Source of the DNA: Promicromonospora sukumoe
GTDB taxonomy: Bacteria > Actinomycetota > Actinomycetes > Actinomycetales > Cellulomonadaceae
Length of the DNA stretch: 64,000 nucleotides
Assembly: GCF_014137995.1 (NCBI RefSeq)
Contig: NZ_JACGWV010000003.1
Coordinates: forward strand, 496,001 to 560,000
Direction of reading: 5' to 3'
The first letter of the stretch is position 1, and every line of letters begins with the position of its first letter. The translations under genes and the position numbers were made by a program. Under the pieces are notes generated by a model that was not told the origin of the DNA, made no database searches, and was given only the letters and a program-made list of their open reading frames with translations. This document shows positions 57,323 through 64,000 of the stretch, in pieces.

Positions 57323-58192
57323 CTAGAGGGACAGGCCGAACCAGAGCAGCAGGCCGTAGCCCAGCTCGTACAGGCCCGTGCCGGCCAGGACCGGGATCAG
57401 CAGCTTGCCGCGTGCCCCGGCGAGAATGGGGATCGACAGCAGCGCCGCCGGGCCGAGCAGCAGCAGCACGATGAGCGACCACGGCGCCCAGAACACGCAC
57501 AGCGCGCCCAGCATCACCGGCGTCCAGATCATCGCGATGTACGCGCGGCGCGCGCGGTAGTCGCCCAGCCGCACGGCGAGGGTGCGCTTGCCGGCCAGGA
57601 CGTCCGTGGGGATGTCGCGCAGGTTGTTCACCATGAGCAGCGCGCACGCGATCAGGCCCACGCCGACGGCGCCCAGCACCGAGGGCCAGGTGATGCGGTC
57701 GGCCTGCGTGTACGTGGTGCCGAGCACCGCGACCAGGCCGAAGAACACGAACACGGCGATCTCGCCCAGGCCCCGGTACCCGTACGGCGTCTTGCCGCCC
57801 GTGTAGTACCAGGCCGCGGCGACGCTCACCGCGCCGACCGCGAGCAGCCACCAGTGCCCCGAGACCGCGCACAGCACCAGGCCCAGGACCGCCGCGACGC
57901 CGAACGCGGCGAAGGCCGCGCGCTTGACCGCGGCGGGCGGCGCGGCCCCCGACGCGGTCAGCCGCATCGGGCCGACGCGGTCGAGGTCGGTACCGCGCAC
58001 GCCGTCGGAGTAGTCGTTGGCGAAGTTGACGCCCACCTGCAGCGCGAGCGCGACGCCCAGCGCGAGCAGCGCCGGCAGCCACGCGGAGGAGTCCACCTGC
58101 GCGGCCGCGCCGGTGCCCACCATGACGGGGGCCGCCGCCGCCGGCAGCGTGCGGGGCCGCGCCCCGGAGATCCACTCGGCGGCAGTGGCCAT
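57323..58192 (-). CDS. menA: 1,4-dihydroxy-2-naphthoate polyprenyltransferase
   Basis: Attaches the polyprenyl chain to DHNA in menaquinone synthesis. 289 aa, eight or nine membrane segments, UbiA family: first Asp-rich motif NFANDYSDG (57-64), second in NNLRDIPTDVLAGKRTLAVRLG. ATG at 58192 fits the usual N-terminus WISGARPRTLPAA. menE lies upstream on the same strand, 85 nt away. Confidence 0.95.
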   Translation of the reverse strand: MATAAEWISGARPRTLPAAAAPVMVGTGAAAQVDSSAWLPALLALGVALALQVGVNFANDYSDGVRGTDLDRVGPMRLTASGAAPPAAVKRAAFAAFGVAAVLGLVLCAVSGHWWLLAVGAVSVAAAWYYTGGKTPYGYRGLGEIAVFVFFGLVAVLGTTYTQADRITWPSVLGAVGVGLIACALLMVNNLRDIPTDVLAGKRTLAVRLGDYRARRAYIAMIWTPVMLGALCVFWAPWSLIVLLLLGPAALLSIPILAGARGKLLIPVLAGTGLYELGYGLLLWFGLSL

Positions 58193-58277
58193 CAGTGCGT
58201 CCTTCGTTCGTGGGGTGTGCCTGGGTTCTCGCAAGCCGGGCACCGGGCCGGAGCCCGGTCCTGGCGGAGGAACGAAG

Positions 58278-59603
58278 TCATGGTCGCACGGGTTCCCGGT
58301 CAAGTTTTCGTTCGGCCTGGACGACGGCGTCCCGCACCGCCCGGCGGTCCGTCTTGCCCGGTCCGCGGGTCGGCAGAGACGCTGTGACGTACACCCGGCG
58401 CGGCGCCGCGGGCGCCCCCAGCCGCTGCCCGACGGCGGCGCGCAGGCCGGCGAGTAGCTCGCCCTCGGCGTCGGCCAGGGGGAGGGGGTCGTGCGGCTCT
58501 CCCTGCTCCTTCACGTCTGCTTGGTCCGGCAGGACGACGACGGCGACCACGGCCTGGCCCCACTCGTCGTCCGGCACCCCGACGACGCACGCCTCGCCCG
58601 GCGTGCCCAGCCCCGCCAGGTGCTCGGCGATCGCGTCCTCGACGGCGGCCGGGGCGACGTTGACGCCCCCGGTGAGGACGACGTCGTCGGCGCGGCCCAG
58701 GATCGTGAGCCTGCCGTCGTCGAGACGGCCCAGGTCGGAGGTGCGGAACCAGCGGGTGCCGTCGGGGTCGGTGCGGAACGCGGCGGCCGTCGCGTCGGGG
58801 TCGCCCACGTAGCCCTCGGCGAGCACGGGCCCGGAGAGCTCGACGACGCCGGTGCGGGCGGGGCCGTCCGGGGCGCCGTTCTCGGCGTCGGCCGGGGTGC
58901 TGCCCCCGGCGTCGGCCAGCCGGACCCGGACACCGGCCAGCGGGACGCCGTCGTACACGCAGCCGCCGCTGGTCTCGGACATGCCGTACGTGGTGACGAC
59001 GCGGACCCCCGCGGCCCGCGCGCGGGCCAGCAGGGGTGCGGGCGTCGCGGCGCCGCCGACCAGCACGGCGTCGAACCGCGCGAGCTGCGCGAGGCCGTCG
59101 TCGGACGGGTCGCTGCCCGCTCCGCCGTCGGCTGCCCCGCCGTCGGCCGCGGCGACCAGCCGGTGCAGCTGGGTGGGCACGATCGACACATAGGCGCGGC
59201 CGCCCGGGCCTCCGCCGCCCGGGGCGTCGAGGAAGTCCCGGGCCAGGGCGGCGAACGCCTCCGGCGTGAACGGGGCCAGGTCGCCCACGCGGACCTCGGT
59301 GCCCGCGACGACCGTCCGGTTGATGACCTGGACCCCCGCGACGTGCGTGGGCGGCAGCACCAGCAGCCAGCGGCCGGGCCCGCCGAGTCGCTCGTGGGTG
59401 GCCTCGGCGGAGGCCCGCAGGGCCGCCGCGCCGAGGGCGACCTCGCGGGGGTCTCCTGTGGAACCGGAGGTCCGCAGCACGAGCGCGGTCCCGGGCGGGA
59501 CGGCGGCGTCGGACAGGCGGGGCTGCGGGGCGTAGGCCGGGCCGCCGGACAGGGCATTCCGGACGGAGCGCACCACGGCGCCCGCGGGGTCGGTCGAGGT
59601 CAC
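58278..59603 (-). CDS. menE: o-Succinylbenzoate-CoA ligase
   Basis: AMP-forming ligase that activates o-succinylbenzoate for menaquinone synthesis. 441 aa: P-loop RTSGSTGDPREV (44-55), YGMSETSGG, the WFRTSDLG hinge and the catalytic lysine region RGPGKTDRR near the C-terminus. Several Ala/Gly/Asp-rich insertions. GTG at 59603 has TACGCT exactly 6 nt upstream, so AGGAG directly touching the start need not act as a ribosome site. Confidence 0.93.
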   Translation of the reverse strand: MTSTDPAGAVVRSVRNALSGGPAYAPQPRLSDAAVPPGTALVLRTSGSTGDPREVALGAAALRASAEATHERLGGPGRWLLVLPPTHVAGVQVINRTVVAGTEVRVGDLAPFTPEAFAALARDFLDAPGGGGPGGRAYVSIVPTQLHRLVAAADGGAADGGAGSDPSDDGLAQLARFDAVLVGGAATPAPLLARARAAGVRVVTTYGMSETSGGCVYDGVPLAGVRVRLADAGGSTPADAENGAPDGPARTGVVELSGPVLAEGYVGDPDATAAAFRTDPDGTRWFRTSDLGRLDDGRLTILGRADDVVLTGGVNVAPAAVEDAIAEHLAGLGTPGEACVVGVPDDEWGQAVVAVVVLPDQADVKEQGEPHDPLPLADAEGELLAGLRAAVGQRLGAPAAPRRVYVTASLPTRGPGKTDRRAVRDAVVQAERKLDREPVRP

Positions 59604-59712
59604 CTCCTGAGCGTAAGCGCGCCCGGGGGGGCCGGGCCTCCGGCGGATCTGTAAGGTGTGCGCCACACGGACCCCTTGGGGCTCGGCACCGAACGCTCGC
59701 GGAGGAGTACCG

Positions 59713-60792
59713 ATGACCACGCGTTGGACGACGGCGGTTCGTGCCACAGGTACGGCCCTGGTGACAGCACTCGCGCTGACCGGCTGCAGCGCCGGCAGCC
59801 CCGCGGAAGCCCTCGTGACGCCCACCGCGACGGTCGCGGCGCAGGTCGAGGGCGACCGGACCGGGCCCCCGGACCCCGACGTGCCCCTGGTGTGGCCGCT
59901 GACCGGCGTGCCGGCCAAGGTGGTCAAGGCGCGTCCCGCGGTGTCGGTGAAGATCGAGAACGCGACGGCGGCCCGGCCGCAGCGCGGGCTGAACCAGGCG
60001 GACATCGTGTGGGAGGAGGTCGTCGAGGGCGGGATCACCCGGTTCGTCGCGACGTACCACTCGAACATCCCGGACGTCGTCGAGCCGGTGCGCTCCGTGC
60101 GGCCGATGGACGCCGCGATCGTCGCCCCGCTCGACGGCATCCTGGTGTTCTCCGGAGGGCAGGGGCCGTTCATCTCGGCGGTCCAGCGGCTGGGCACCCA
60201 GACGATCATCATGGACGACGGCGACCCCGGCTTCCGGCGTGATCCCGGCCGGACCGCGCCGCACAACGTGATCGGCACCATGTCGACGTTCGTCAAGCAG
60301 GCCGACGCGGAGCGGACGAGCCCGCCGCCCGCCCAGTTCGACTACGCGAGCAAGCTCGGCCAGGGCACGGCGCGGCAGTCCGGCAAGCCCGCGCGCTCGG
60401 CCGACGTGAAGCTGTCGGCGGTGCAGCGCACCGGCTGGACGTGGGACCGGGACAGCAAGCGGTACCTGCGGAGCGAGGGCGCGTCGCCGTCGATGGCCGC
60501 CAACGGCATGCGGCACGCCGCGCGGAACGTCCTCGTGCTGTCCACCGAGGTGTTCAACACCAAGTGGGTGGACCCGACGGGTGCCCCCGTGCCGGAGCAC
60601 CGGCTCGCCCGCAGCGGCGGCAAGGGCACCCTGCTCTCGATGGGGCACAGCGTGTCGGTGCGCTGGTCGAAGAAGAGCCTCAAGGCGCCGATCGTGCTCA
60701 CGACCCCCGGCGGCAAGAGCGTGGAGCTCGAGCCCGGCAACACCTGGATCGAGCTCGTGCCGAGGGGCAAGGGGAGCTGGCAGGTGGGCTGA
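59713..60792 (+). CDS. DUF3048-domain lipoprotein (YerB-like)
   Basis: 359 aa. Lipobox LTGC with Cys25, then the DUF3048 N-domain (SVKIENATAARPQRGLNQADIVWEEVVEGGITRFVA, VRSVRPMD) and C-domain (GNTWIELVPRG). Found in many Gram-positives on the outer face of the membrane; function unknown. GGAGGAG ribosome site. Divergent from menE. Confidence 0.9.
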   Translation: MTTRWTTAVRATGTALVTALALTGCSAGSPAEALVTPTATVAAQVEGDRTGPPDPDVPLVWPLTGVPAKVVKARPAVSVKIENATAARPQRGLNQADIVWEEVVEGGITRFVATYHSNIPDVVEPVRSVRPMDAAIVAPLDGILVFSGGQGPFISAVQRLGTQTIIMDDGDPGFRRDPGRTAPHNVIGTMSTFVKQADAERTSPPPAQFDYASKLGQGTARQSGKPARSADVKLSAVQRTGWTWDRDSKRYLRSEGASPSMAANGMRHAARNVLVLSTEVFNTKWVDPTGAPVPEHRLARSGGKGTLLSMGHSVSVRWSKKSLKAPIVLTTPGGKSVELEPGNTWIELVPRGKGSWQVG

Positions 60793-60815
60793 TCCGGAGC
60801 CGTCCCCGGCCCGGG

Positions 60816-60956
60816 TATTCTTCCCGCACGGCGACGGCGTACGGCCGTCGTGGCTGATGAGAAAGCCTTCATCCGGGTCTCATCACGAGTTCATGGCGGG
60901 CTTGTCGAATAACGACGTCGCACCATCGCGTCCCTCGACAAGAAAGCGTGGCCGCC
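60816..60956 (+). promoter_or_regulatory. Structured leader before the P-loop/ABC-like pair
   Basis: TATTCT at 60816-60821 resembles a -10 box. The following 135 nt contain two inverted repeats: TGATGAG (60855) with CTCATCA (60879), and CTTGTCGA (60901) with TCGACAAG (60935). A 37-codon reading frame (60857-60970; Ser/His/Arg-rich, no clear ribosome site) runs through both and overlaps the next start; I do not claim it as a gene. Confidence 0.4.
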
Positions 60957-62168
60957 ATGAGCATCCTTGACACGTCCCCGGAGCTGCACGGGCTCGACGC
61001 GCGTCCCGTCGCGCGTCCCGTCGCGACCCCGCTGCGGCTCGACGCCGGGCCCGCGACGGTGCGGCTGCCGGACGCGGCGGCCCGTCGCGTGCTGCGCGCC
61101 AAGAAGGCCTACTCCACCCGGTTCGTCGCCGCGGCGATCGAGCGGGACCCCGCCGCCTTCGGCCTGGTCACCGACCTGGCCGGGGCGCCGCGCCCCGGTG
61201 ACGTCGTGCTGGCGCGGGTCGTCACGATCGGCCAGCACCGCCGGCTCGAGTCGCCGGCCTCCCGCCGGCAGACCCTGTTCGAGGGCGACGAGATCGTCGT
61301 CGCCTACGGGTCGCGGTACGCCGCCGACCAGTTCCTCGCCCTGCTCCCCGAGGACCTCGGCCCGTGCCACCTCGCCGCCGCCGGCGGGCTCGCGTCGCGG
61401 GTCGTCGATCAGCACGCCGCGATCAAGGACGCCACGGTCATCGAGCCGCTCGGGCTGCTCTCGTCGGGCGGCTCGGTCGTGAACCTCGCCGACCACGCGC
61501 CCTACCCGCTGCGCGCGGCGGAGAACCTGGCCGGGAACGCCACGCGCGTCCCGGTGGTCGCGGTGATCGGCACCTCGATGAACTCCGGCAAGTCGACCAC
61601 CCTCGCGTGCCTCGCCCACGGCCTCACCGCCGCGGGGCTCACGGTCCACGCGGGCAAGGCGACCGGCACGGGCGCGGGCAACGACGCGCTCCACTTCGTC
61701 GACGCGGGCGCCGAGCACGTCGTCGACTTCACCGACTTCGGCCTGCCGAGCACCTTCGGCCTGCCGTTCGAGGACGTCCGCGACGTGTTCGCCACGATGG
61801 CCGACGTGCTCGCCTCCCCGGCCCGGCCGGGCGGCCCGGTGCCCGACGTCGTGCTGATCGAGATCGCCGACGGCGTCTACCAGGGCGAGACCGGCCGCCT
61901 CCTGGTCGACGACGCGTTCCGTTCCGTGGTCGACCGCGTCGTGTTCGCCGCCGGCGACGCCCTCGGGGCGAGCGGCGGCGTCGCGGCCCTGCGCGCCCTC
62001 GGCTGCGACCCATCGCTCGTGTCGGGCGTGCTCACGGCCTCGCCGCTCGCGACGGCCGAGGCCCGCCGGGCGCTCGACGTCGACGTCGTGCCCACCTACG
62101 ACCTGTGCCAGCCGGACGTCGCGTGGGCCGCCGCGGGACTCCAGGCCACGGGCCATGCGGTTGCCTGA
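60957..62168 (+). CDS. P-loop NTPase of unknown function (DUF1611/dethiobiotin-synthase-like fold)
   Basis: 403 aa. An N-terminal domain of about 195 residues contains a beta-rich part (GDVVLARVVTIGQHRRLE, then LFEGDEIVVAYGSRY). The C-terminal NTPase domain has intact Walker A GTSMNSGKST (205-214), a GKATGTGAGND loop (233-243) and Walker B-like DVVLIEIADG (297-306). Its layout resembles the DUF1611 C-domain and BioD/MobB enzymes rather than ABC ATPases. I do not recognise a specific function. ATG 60957 or GTG 60948. Its last 14 nt overlap the next gene, an ABC-like protein with a dead ATPase domain. Confidence 0.8.
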   Translation: MSILDTSPELHGLDARPVARPVATPLRLDAGPATVRLPDAAARRVLRAKKAYSTRFVAAAIERDPAAFGLVTDLAGAPRPGDVVLARVVTIGQHRRLESPASRRQTLFEGDEIVVAYGSRYAADQFLALLPEDLGPCHLAAAGGLASRVVDQHAAIKDATVIEPLGLLSSGGSVVNLADHAPYPLRAAENLAGNATRVPVVAVIGTSMNSGKSTTLACLAHGLTAAGLTVHAGKATGTGAGNDALHFVDAGAEHVVDFTDFGLPSTFGLPFEDVRDVFATMADVLASPARPGGPVPDVVLIEIADGVYQGETGRLLVDDAFRSVVDRVVFAAGDALGASGGVAALRALGCDPSLVSGVLTASPLATAEARRALDVDVVPTYDLCQPDVAWAAAGLQATGHAVA

Positions 62169-63930
62169 GTCGGGCGGGGCCTCGGCCGGGCTGGTCGGGC
62201 CCGCTGAGCCGGGCGGGCCGGCCGTTGCTCCCGAGCCGGCCGAGGCGTCGTCCGAGGCGTCGTCCGAACCGGACGCAGCGGGCGGGCTGCCGCGGATCGT
62301 CGTCGGCACGCGGCGTCGCTGGGTCGTCGGGCTCGCCGCGCTCGGCCTCGGCCAGGGTGCGCTCGGCGCGGTGGGCGCCTGGGCACTGACGCAGCTCCGT
62401 CCGGAGCTGTGGCCGCTCGTCGTAGCGGTGCTGAGCATCGTGGCGACGGCGGTGGCCGTCGGCGGGCTGCGCGTCGAGGAGCGGATCGTCGCGGAGCGGC
62501 TCGGCCAGGACTACGTGCGCGACCTGCGCCGGGAGCTGGTCGAGTCCGAGCTGACGCCGGGCGGCAGCACCCATCTCGGCATCACGGTGGCCCGGACCAC
62601 CAACGACCTCGCGAGCGTCCGCAACTGGGTGTCGCAGGGGATCGGCCCGCTGGCGGCGGGCATCCCGCTGATCGCCGGGTCCGCCGTCGGGCTCACGGTG
62701 CTCGACCCGTTCCTCGGCATCGGGTTCCTGCTGCCGCTCGCCGTGCTCGCCGCCGTCATGGTGCCGTGGGCGCGCACCGCGTACCTGAAGTCGCGGCGGC
62801 TGCGCCGCGCCCGCGGGCGCATGGCCACGCGGATCGCTGACACCGTCGGGGCCTCGGAGGGGATCATCGCGGCGCGCGGCGCCGGCCGCGAGCTCGACCA
62901 CATCGACTCCGCGTCCGCCGACGTCGTGGACCGTGCCGTCGACCGCTCGGTGACGGTCGGCGCGCTGCGCGCCGGAGGCACGGTCGCGGCGCTGCTGGCG
63001 ACGCTCGCCGTCGCCGCCGTCGGCGTGGTGCGGGGCCTCGACCCGACCGTCACCGTGGCCGCGATGGCCATGGCCGGGCTGGCCTCGACGCCCATCGTCG
63101 ACCTGGGGCGCATCGTCGATTACCGGCAGACCTTCCTGGCGGCCCGCGCGGTGCTCGTCCCCGCGCTCGCCGACGCCGCCCGGCGGCGGGCCGAGCACGA
63201 CCGCGCGAGCAGCGCGGCGGCGTCGGCCGACCTGCCCGACGGCGCCGACGTTCCCGGCCGCGTGCACCTCGTGCTTCCCGGGCTGGTCCCGGACGGCGCG
63301 CCGCTGAGCGCGGGCCCTGGCGCGCGCATCCGCCTCGTCGGCGACGACACCGGCGACGGCGCGGGGGCGCCGCTGCGCCTGATGCGCCGCGTCGTGGGCC
63401 TCGACCTCGCGCCGGCCGGCACGACCGACGAGATCTGGGTGGCCGGGCAGAACCTGCGCGCGGTCGCGCCGTCGGACGGCCGTGCCCTCGTGGGGCTCGC
63501 GACCCGGGGCACCGTGTTCGAGCGCGGGACCCTGCGGCGCGCGCTCCGGTACCGCCGCCCCGACCTGGACGACGCCACGGCCGACGCGGTGTTCGAGGCC
63601 GTGGGTCTCGACGTCGGCCGGTTCCCGGACGGGCCCCGCACCGTGCTGCGCGCCGGCGGGGAGCCCCTGACCGTCGACGAGCGGGCCCGGCTCGCGCTCG
63701 CCCGCGCGGTCTACGGGGAGCCGCCGCTGCTGCTGGTCGCCGACCTGGACCGCGACCTGGACGAGGAGGGGCGCGACCGGCTCGCGGCCCTGCTGGCGGC
63801 GTACCCGGGGGCGGTCGCGTTCACCGGGTCCGACGAGCTGGCACGGGTGCTGGACGCGGAGGAGCTCCGCCTGGCGTCCGCCCCGGTCCCGGTCACCCCA
63901 GACGGCCGCACCCCGGACGCCGACGATTGA
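62155..63930 (+). CDS. ABC-exporter-like membrane protein with degenerate nucleotide-binding domain
   Basis: 591 aa. Residues 1-50 Ala/Glu-rich, 55-330 a type I exporter membrane domain (five or six helices), 365-585 a domain that aligns with ABC ATPases but has lost the key residues. Where Walker A should be there is LVGDDTGDGAGAPL (394-407), without GxxGxGK[ST]. The signature LSGGQ is replaced by LTVDE (505-509), though RLALARAVYG follows. Walker B reads LLLVADLD without Glu, and the H-loop histidine is missing (AFTGSDEL). The frame is long and intact, so this looks like a preserved pseudo-ATPase. Confidence 0.82.
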   Translation: MRLPESGGASAGLVGPAEPGGPAVAPEPAEASSEASSEPDAAGGLPRIVVGTRRRWVVGLAALGLGQGALGAVGAWALTQLRPELWPLVVAVLSIVATAVAVGGLRVEERIVAERLGQDYVRDLRRELVESELTPGGSTHLGITVARTTNDLASVRNWVSQGIGPLAAGIPLIAGSAVGLTVLDPFLGIGFLLPLAVLAAVMVPWARTAYLKSRRLRRARGRMATRIADTVGASEGIIAARGAGRELDHIDSASADVVDRAVDRSVTVGALRAGGTVAALLATLAVAAVGVVRGLDPTVTVAAMAMAGLASTPIVDLGRIVDYRQTFLAARAVLVPALADAARRRAEHDRASSAAASADLPDGADVPGRVHLVLPGLVPDGAPLSAGPGARIRLVGDDTGDGAGAPLRLMRRVVGLDLAPAGTTDEIWVAGQNLRAVAPSDGRALVGLATRGTVFERGTLRRALRYRRPDLDDATADAVFEAVGLDVGRFPDGPRTVLRAGGEPLTVDERARLALARAVYGEPPLLLVADLDRDLDEEGRDRLAALLAAYPGAVAFTGSDELARVLDAEELRLASAPVPVTPDGRTPDADD

Positions 63931-63984
63931 CTTCCGCTGGCTGACCGACTCCCGCTGGTCGTGCCCTCGCCGGTCGACCCACCC

Positions 63985-64000
63985 CCGCCGGTCGAGCTTG
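63985..64000. repeat. Palindromic repeat family B, copy 4 (cut by window end)
   Basis: CCGCCGGTCGAGCTTG, the left arm of the family, 54 nt after the stop of the ABC-like gene. The rest lies outside the window. It suggests the operon ends here. Confidence 0.6.

Follow-up and report, generated by a model that had tools for sequence, protein, structure and literature searches.

The window analysed here, 64,000 nt of the Promicromonospora sukumoe contig NZ_JACGWV010000003.1, carries an overlapping pair of genes on the forward strand, called gene 1 and gene 2 below. Judged from alignment and predicted fold, gene 2 descends from an ATP-driven type IV ATP-binding cassette (ABC) exporter, and its residues for ATP binding and hydrolysis have been lost. 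The reading that we favour, tentatively, is that the two genes form a conserved module of an ATP-dependent enzyme of the BioD/CTP-synthase/DUF1611 class (gene 1) and an ABC-derived, ATP-independent membrane partner that retains a pseudo nucleotide-binding domain (pseudo-NBD; gene 2). The comparison covers 64 loci, each counted once. Nine of them are from Promicromonospora (the window's own, L018, and eight others). Because the loci were retrieved via gene 1 or gene 2 matches, neither they nor the proportions derived from them represent a random sample.

An exporter fold without ATPase motifs

The predicted structure of the gene 2 protein is a complete type IV ABC exporter with a predicted local distance difference test score (pLDDT) of 90, and its best fold matches are the heterodimers TmrAB and CydDC. 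The Pfam profile ABC_membrane scored 23 bits, under its cut-off of 28. The exporter-type combination of transmembrane domain (TMD) and NBD fold is present, whereas the motifs of an active ATPase are not. Compared with type IV exporters of the TmrAB, CydDC and MsbA kind, the clade of gene 2 lacks the Walker A Lys, the second Gly of the signature and the H-loop His, and has the catalytic Glu in a single row (Table 1). The 12 other exporters in the same alignment have the Lys and the second Gly in 12 of 12 and the Glu and the His in 10 of 12. Likewise, the pattern GxxGxGK[ST] was missing from 119 of the best 120 of 126 gene 2 homologues, and the sole carrier among those 120, P0120, is an ordinary ABC transporter. 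Chance or a wrong reading frame is excluded for gene 2 by the predicted fold and the homologues.

The original prediction had described a type I exporter membrane domain and an ABC-like C-terminal domain, with the motifs replaced in an intact frame of 591 codons, and both fold and alignment confirm this. The 14-nt overlap that it reported agrees with the coordinates, and the intact Walker A that it saw in gene 1, of a non-ABC type, is confirmed; this P-loop pattern occurs at 62 of the 64 loci.

Table 1. Features of the gene pair in the window. Counts compare 47 rows of the motif-less (dead) clade with 14 motif-intact relatives, or 61 aligned gene 1 proteins.
Feature	Residues	Position	Strand	Basis or conservation
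Gene 1, two-domain protein	403 aa	60957..62168	+	
Gene 1, beta-rich N-terminal domain	about 38-190			
Gene 1, SIMIBI/BioD-like P-loop domain	196-401			
Gene 1, deviant P-loop GTSMNSGKST	205-214	61569..61598	+	conserved pattern
Gene 1, Lys of KxTGT motif	234	61656..61658	+	invariant, 61/61
Gene 1, Glu of EIADG motif	302	61860..61862	+	invariant, 61/61
Overlap of gene 1 end and gene 2 start, 14 nt		62155..62168	+	
Gene 2, ABC-exporter-derived protein without ATPase motifs	591 aa	62155..63930	+	open reading frame, fold, homologues
Gene 2, TMD and intracellular helices	51-356	62305..63222	+	helix pattern of model
Gene 2, pseudo-NBD	about 365-578	63247..63888	+	
Gene 2, lost Walker A site		63337..63381	+	Lys: dead 0/47, intact 14/14
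Gene 2, lost signature LSGGQ site, here LTVDE		63667..63681	+	second Gly: dead 0/47, intact 14/14
Gene 2, Walker B Asp-Glu site, here Ala-Asp		63739..63744	+	catalytic Glu: dead 1/47, intact 14/14
Gene 2, H-loop His site, here Ser	559	63829..63831	+	His: dead 0/47, intact 14/14

Motif-intact relatives and the number of losses

A motif-intact exporter of the gene 2 family stands beside gene 1 at 14 loci (L063, L065, L068-L072, L105, L107, L122, L132, L140, L141 and L161). Nine of these intact relatives were included in alignment A2, where they show 24-30% identity with the gene 2 protein of the window. Trees were built from 75 rows, namely 47 of the main dead clade, picked as near full length and some nearly identical to each other, the 14 intact forms, the 12 other exporters, L066 and L162. 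Relative to an earlier set of 82 rows, 14 had been removed (mostly near-duplicates, and two long branches) and seven added. In a tree of the TMD only, dead and intact forms lie together on one side of a branch with support 100/99 and the 12 other exporters on the other side, although four of these 12 likewise adjoin a homologue of gene 1. Nested among the intact forms, the dead rows make up a single clade of 47 (100/100).

Joining L066 to the main dead clade costs 105.6 log-likelihood units and is rejected by the approximately unbiased (AU) test with a p of about 6e-46. In the L162 protein the Walker A Lys is replaced by Arg and the H-loop His by Pro, with Asp-Glu retained. Its branch lies apart from the main dead group, with support that suggests a third loss, yet a single clade of the two is not rejected by the AU test (p 0.154). 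By these trees the ATPase motifs were lost at least twice, in the main clade and in L066, and perhaps a third time in L162; only two losses are firm because of that AU result. The Q-loop Gln is found in none of the 14 intact relatives, 13 of which have Pro, and in nine of the 12 other exporters. As the Gln is already gone from the motif-intact relatives, change at the coupling site probably preceded loss of the ATP site, to judge from these present-day proteins.

The original prediction had asked whether the motifs are missing from all homologues. They are missing from the whole 47-row clade, but not from the intact relatives at 14 loci. It had also taken intact homologues to mean that the copy in the window is decaying; such homologues do exist, yet they do not imply decay, since the dead forms make up a separate, deep clade.

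Selection and conserved residues

The ratio of nonsynonymous to synonymous substitution (dN/dS) was estimated by the Nei-Gojobori method for eight Promicromonospora sequences (28 pairs). The median for gene 2 was 0.26 over the whole protein, with 0.19 for the TMD and 0.26 for the NBD, and gene 1 gave 0.26, with 0.16 for its P-loop domain. Intact relatives of family f23 gave 0.39 over the whole protein (four sequences, 6 pairs). On these values gene 2 is maintained by purifying selection and is not decaying, which answers the question about its dN/dS that the original prediction had raised.

Column conservation in the dead rows was 0.41 at Walker A, 0.50 at the signature and 0.34 at the H-loop, against 0.87, 0.96 and 0.93 in the intact rows. 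The columns directly preceding the signature are better conserved in the dead clade (0.87) than in the intact forms (0.68). Newly fixed in the dead clade are ERG around the Q-loop (99%, 91% and 99% for its three residues) and GG.PL ahead of the signature; both the stretch before the signature, known as the X-loop region, and the Q-loop are in contact with the TMD. Two glutamates, E114 and E246 in the numbering of the window protein, are present in 100% of both the dead and the intact group and in at most a quarter of the 12 other exporters. Because dead and intact forms share the TMD grouping and these family-specific residues, the job of the TMD looks unchanged between them.

Gene 1 and its fold relatives

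Within the P-loop, K212 and T214 show no variation among 61 aligned proteins. In a profile alignment with BioD of Mycobacterium tuberculosis (E 0.0023), the invariant Lys234 aligns with the Lys of the BioD motif KPVQTG, and by analogy with BioD we take Glu302 to be the probable metal or catalytic acid. The P-loop domain resembles in fold DUF1611 proteins, BioD and the amidoligase domain of CTP synthase. BioD is not known to have an N-terminal domain like that of gene 1. With the solved DUF1611 members (PDB 2g0t and 2obn) and the family at large, including DgcN, gene 1 shares the fold of that domain and a deviant P-loop. It differs from DUF1611 proper in that the Pfam profile (PF07755) matches at 21.1 bits, under the gathering score of 25; a match at E <= 0.01 was obtained for 50 of the 61 members of the gene 1 alignment, A1. 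DgcN is a DUF1611 protein acting as an N-acetyltransferase. One paper names a DgcN-DgcA route (PMC10845958).

Co-occurrence of the two genes

A gene of the gene 2 family adjoins gene 1 on the same strand at 38 of the 64 loci, so that the co-occurrence suggested in the original prediction holds within this sample. In 24 of these cases it is motif-less, counting one Promicromonospora locus (L013) where gene 2 is partial and has no NBD to judge, and in 14 it is intact. ABC exporters of other lineages stand beside gene 1 at four loci (L123, L124, L125 and L164). At the remaining 22, no ABC exporter-type gene scoring at least 120 bits is directly adjacent; these include six distant homologues (L126-L131), the distant L067 and the damaged copies L108 and L109. 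For 13 genomes in which gene 1 has no adjacent family ABC, candidates from the rest of the genome were scored and no family member was found among them: the best reached 168-197 bits, whereas the window protein scores 658. The genomes of L159, L160 and L163, likewise without a family ABC beside gene 1, were not part of that search. The trees of gene 1 and gene 2 are concordant in their main groups.

Gene 1 was present in 14 of 297 genomes of the order sample, 20 of 394 of the class sample and 11 of 246 of the phylum sample, five of these last 11 holding distant homologues only; by family the counts were 6/120 (f23), 2/39 (f69) and 12/100 (f46), and 1/4 in the order of G024, where samples overlap and thresholds differ between them. 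Among 22 class genomes with a gene 2 match, six (G000, G164, G232, G121, G244 and G024) carry the match next to gene 1 and are counted in the family on that ground, and the other 16 have matches of 57-84 bits with Walker A present.

Some copies of gene 1 are damaged. The copy at L109, in genome G367, is missing residues 288-336 and with them Glu302, which is invariant elsewhere, and no family gene 2 was found in that genome; both genes seem to have been lost together there. In L017, a contig of an Arthrobacter metagenome-assembled genome, gene 1 (2154-2891) is broken and its P-loop is gone, and the dead ABC behind it is whole, which may reflect either an assembly fault or a real loss.

A proposed function and its precedents

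Gene 1 is more likely an enzyme whose product is handled by gene 2 than a replacement motor, because it occurs without a family ABC, occurs with other ABC lineages, and resembles DUF1611, BioD and CTP synthase. It would use a nucleoside triphosphate (NTP) to activate or join a small carboxylate or amino-acid-like metabolite. Transport of this product, or of a related compound, across the membrane would still be the task of gene 2, though no longer through ABC-type ATP hydrolysis. It could act as a gradient-driven or facilitated carrier, or synthesis could provide the pull; candidate energy sources are thus a proton gradient, passive flow or synthesis itself. The motifs were lost repeatedly while the pair stayed together, which argues that ATP hydrolysis by the exporter is dispensable. 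The pseudo-NBD would then persist as a folded platform that seals off the cytoplasmic side and may be a docking site for gene 1; since the NBD body is retained, unlike in SbmA, a role in docking or gating appears likely. The fold neighbours of gene 1 include SRP-type GTPases as well as enzymes.

Type IV exporters are known to tolerate degenerate NBD motifs, as in the heterodimers TmrAB, TAP and TM287/288. Unlike these, which keep one complete ATP site, gene 2 can complete neither composite site. PMC7756269 describes heterodimeric type IV exporters with one degenerate site as common, and a D-loop mutant of TAP as converted into a nucleotide-gated facilitator. The nearest precedent is SbmA/BacA, likewise a type IV ABC TMD in a lineage that gave up ATP drive; according to PMC13316013, SbmA-like transporters (SLiPTs) are derived from type IV ABC transporters and are proton-driven. 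Reports on LmrA and MsbA appear to point in the same direction as the SbmA and TAP cases. SLiPTs are without NBD and coupling helices, both lost, and have acquired TM0 and a glutamate ladder, whereas gene 2 retains the pseudo-NBD and the coupling-helix regions; it does have conserved TMD glutamates. A literature search limited to open-access text returned no description of the gene pair among the matches listed, which is not proof that it is unpublished.

The family amounts to a natural experiment in which an ABC exporter has lost its motor with the body left whole, and in which living relatives, with the same gene as neighbour, still possess the motor. The series runs from the Q-loop Gln replaced by Pro in 13 of the 14 intact forms, through partial loss in L162, to full loss in L066 and the main clade. 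It makes the departure of an ABC protein from ATP testable, whereas SbmA shows the end point only. The pair, a feature of actinobacteria, shows how an ATP-driven pump may continue without its motor, and a family of uncharacterised BioD-like proteins gains a membrane context.

Alternative readings

A possible but rather unlikely alternative, also raised in the original prediction, is that gene 2 no longer transports and serves as a sensor or scaffold, detecting a ligand in the membrane and passing the signal to gene 1 or a two-component system. In its favour, the pseudo-NBD is kept whole, and SUR is reported to be an ABC protein with a channel-regulating role. In addition, a histidine kinase of one hidden Markov model (HMM) group, scoring at least 488 bits, lies within 6 kb of gene 1 at 14 of 54 loci from seven family codes, counts that come from an HMM built on 12 of the 14 loci and lack a background rate for kinases. 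An OmpR-type regulator accompanies the kinase in 12 of the 14 cases. The kinase is upstream on the same strand in five of six f23 loci (L069, L070, L105, L107 and L141), the other occurrences being L056-L061, L063, L064 and L132. However, the kinase does not track the dead form, because it also adjoins gene 1 at the ABC-less L064 and beside intact ABCs, and none turned up near the pair in Promicromonospora (L009-L016 and the window's own locus).

It is unlikely that gene 1 acts as a motor in trans, binding the pseudo-NBD and driving or gating the dead transporter by its NTP cycle, as ArsA drives or gates ArsB. Quite unlikely, too, is the more specific form in which the pair is a re-motored split transporter, an ABC protein with both ATP sites dead that is energised in trans by a P-loop protein, the pseudo-NBD being the docking port for a BioD-class NTPase. 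The P-loop is indeed kept in gene 1 and lost in gene 2, and two gene 1 residues vary with the partner. At position 213 in the P-loop (T213S), Ser occurs in 19 of 19 dead-partnered and Thr in 13 of 14 intact-partnered copies, and at position 267 (Y267F) Phe occurs in 17 of 19 and Tyr in 13 of 14, with Phe also in L066 and L162, in a comparison that covers 19 of the 24 motif-less loci, whose ten positions were found post hoc and from which shared ancestry was not removed. Yet residue 213 is unchanged in L066 and L162, the intact L161 has Ser, and position 267 in eight gene 1 copies without an ABC is Phe in three and His in four. Three Pfam matches were obtained for gene 1 at E <= 1, and an ArsA profile is absent from them, unlike what an ArsA-type ATPase would give. 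In addition, gene 1 is not needed as a motor at loci where it stands alone or with intact exporters. The proposal in the original prediction that the NTPase energises the transporter is therefore weakened, since gene 1 also sits beside ATP-competent exporters (14 family and four other-lineage loci) and has no adjacent ABC exporter at 22 of 64 loci, and since its nearest folds include enzymes. Supported in that interpretation are the co-occurrence, the clade-wide motif loss and the purifying selection.

Improbable as well is synthesis-coupled extrusion, in which gene 1 would polymerise or ligate at the membrane and gene 2 would be the conduit, in the manner of PgsB with PgsC and CapA, which have roles in poly-gamma-glutamate synthesis. 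At two loci the operon continues with a CapA-type PGA_cap gene after the gene 1-ABC pair (L066:10037-11167 and L072:5980-7083; 186.9 and 188.2 bits), one with a dead ABC (L066) and one with an intact ABC (L072). Some neighbours elsewhere handle amino-acid amides, such as an M55 D-aminopeptidase adjoining the L123 copy, a RimK-type ATP-grasp among the neighbours in L132, and M20 deacylases at L126-L131. CapA was found at only these two of the 64 loci, which are divergent but sisters in both trees, and none is found in the window or beside the other Promicromonospora pairs.

It is very unlikely that gene 2 forms a heterodimer with an ABC half-transporter whose gene lies elsewhere. The best fold matches, TmrAB and CydDC, are heterodimers with one degenerate site, and the host genome has other ABC exporters. 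Each ABC ATP site combines Walker A from one half with the signature from its counterpart, so a heterodimer with gene 2, which lacks both, would have no complete ATP site. No second ABC half adjoins the pair. The least probable reading, that gene 2 is a decaying gene without function, can point to the missing motifs and to modules that do decay (the gene 1 deletion in G367, the partial gene 2 of L013), but is rejected by a dN/dS of 0.19-0.26, by motif loss with intact frames across 47 rows of a deep clade (near-full-length rows having been chosen), and by a fold predicted at high confidence.

Surroundings of the pair and of its relatives

The host genome is 6.5 Mb in size, and the closest protein matches of gene 1 (97%) and gene 2 (93%) are both from Promicromonospora sukumoe. 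A DUF3048 gene lies upstream of the pair and a convergent enoyl-CoA hydratase-type gene downstream. No structured RNA reached its gathering score across positions 58000-64000. A defence system was considered and rejected: gene 1 had no PADLOC match at E <= 0.01, and gene 2 had one weak match (mad3, 15.1 bits, E 0.003) spanning 43 residues.

At other loci, the common thread of the neighbours would be amino-acid amide or carboxylate chemistry. The distant DUF1611-like homologues sit behind an M20 deacylase gene in six of six cases (assigned by Pfam for L126 and L129 and by similarity for all six), and a flavin reductase gene identified by Pfam precedes the M20 gene in L126 and L129, the two checked. 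In L067 (5356-13493), the gene 1 homologue lies amid genes for phosphoenolpyruvate mutase, a phosphonopyruvate decarboxylase-like protein, an aldehyde dehydrogenase and two ATP-grasp-like proteins, in what looks like a phosphonate biosynthesis cluster. Two distant genomes (L123 and L164) have a gene 1 homologue, another protein and an other-lineage ABC exporter in a row; in L123 the protein between them has 374 amino acids and a HEAGH motif. An HTTM-type gene follows the ABC at L017:4616-6159, L124:8046-8966 and L125:4989-6373, accompanied by a small conserved partner protein that is 44% identical between L017 and L125. Finally, in nine genomes of one genus code (L097-L104 and L108), an ABC-less gene 1 is located behind the gene for DNA ligase LigA, and the copy in L108 is broken.

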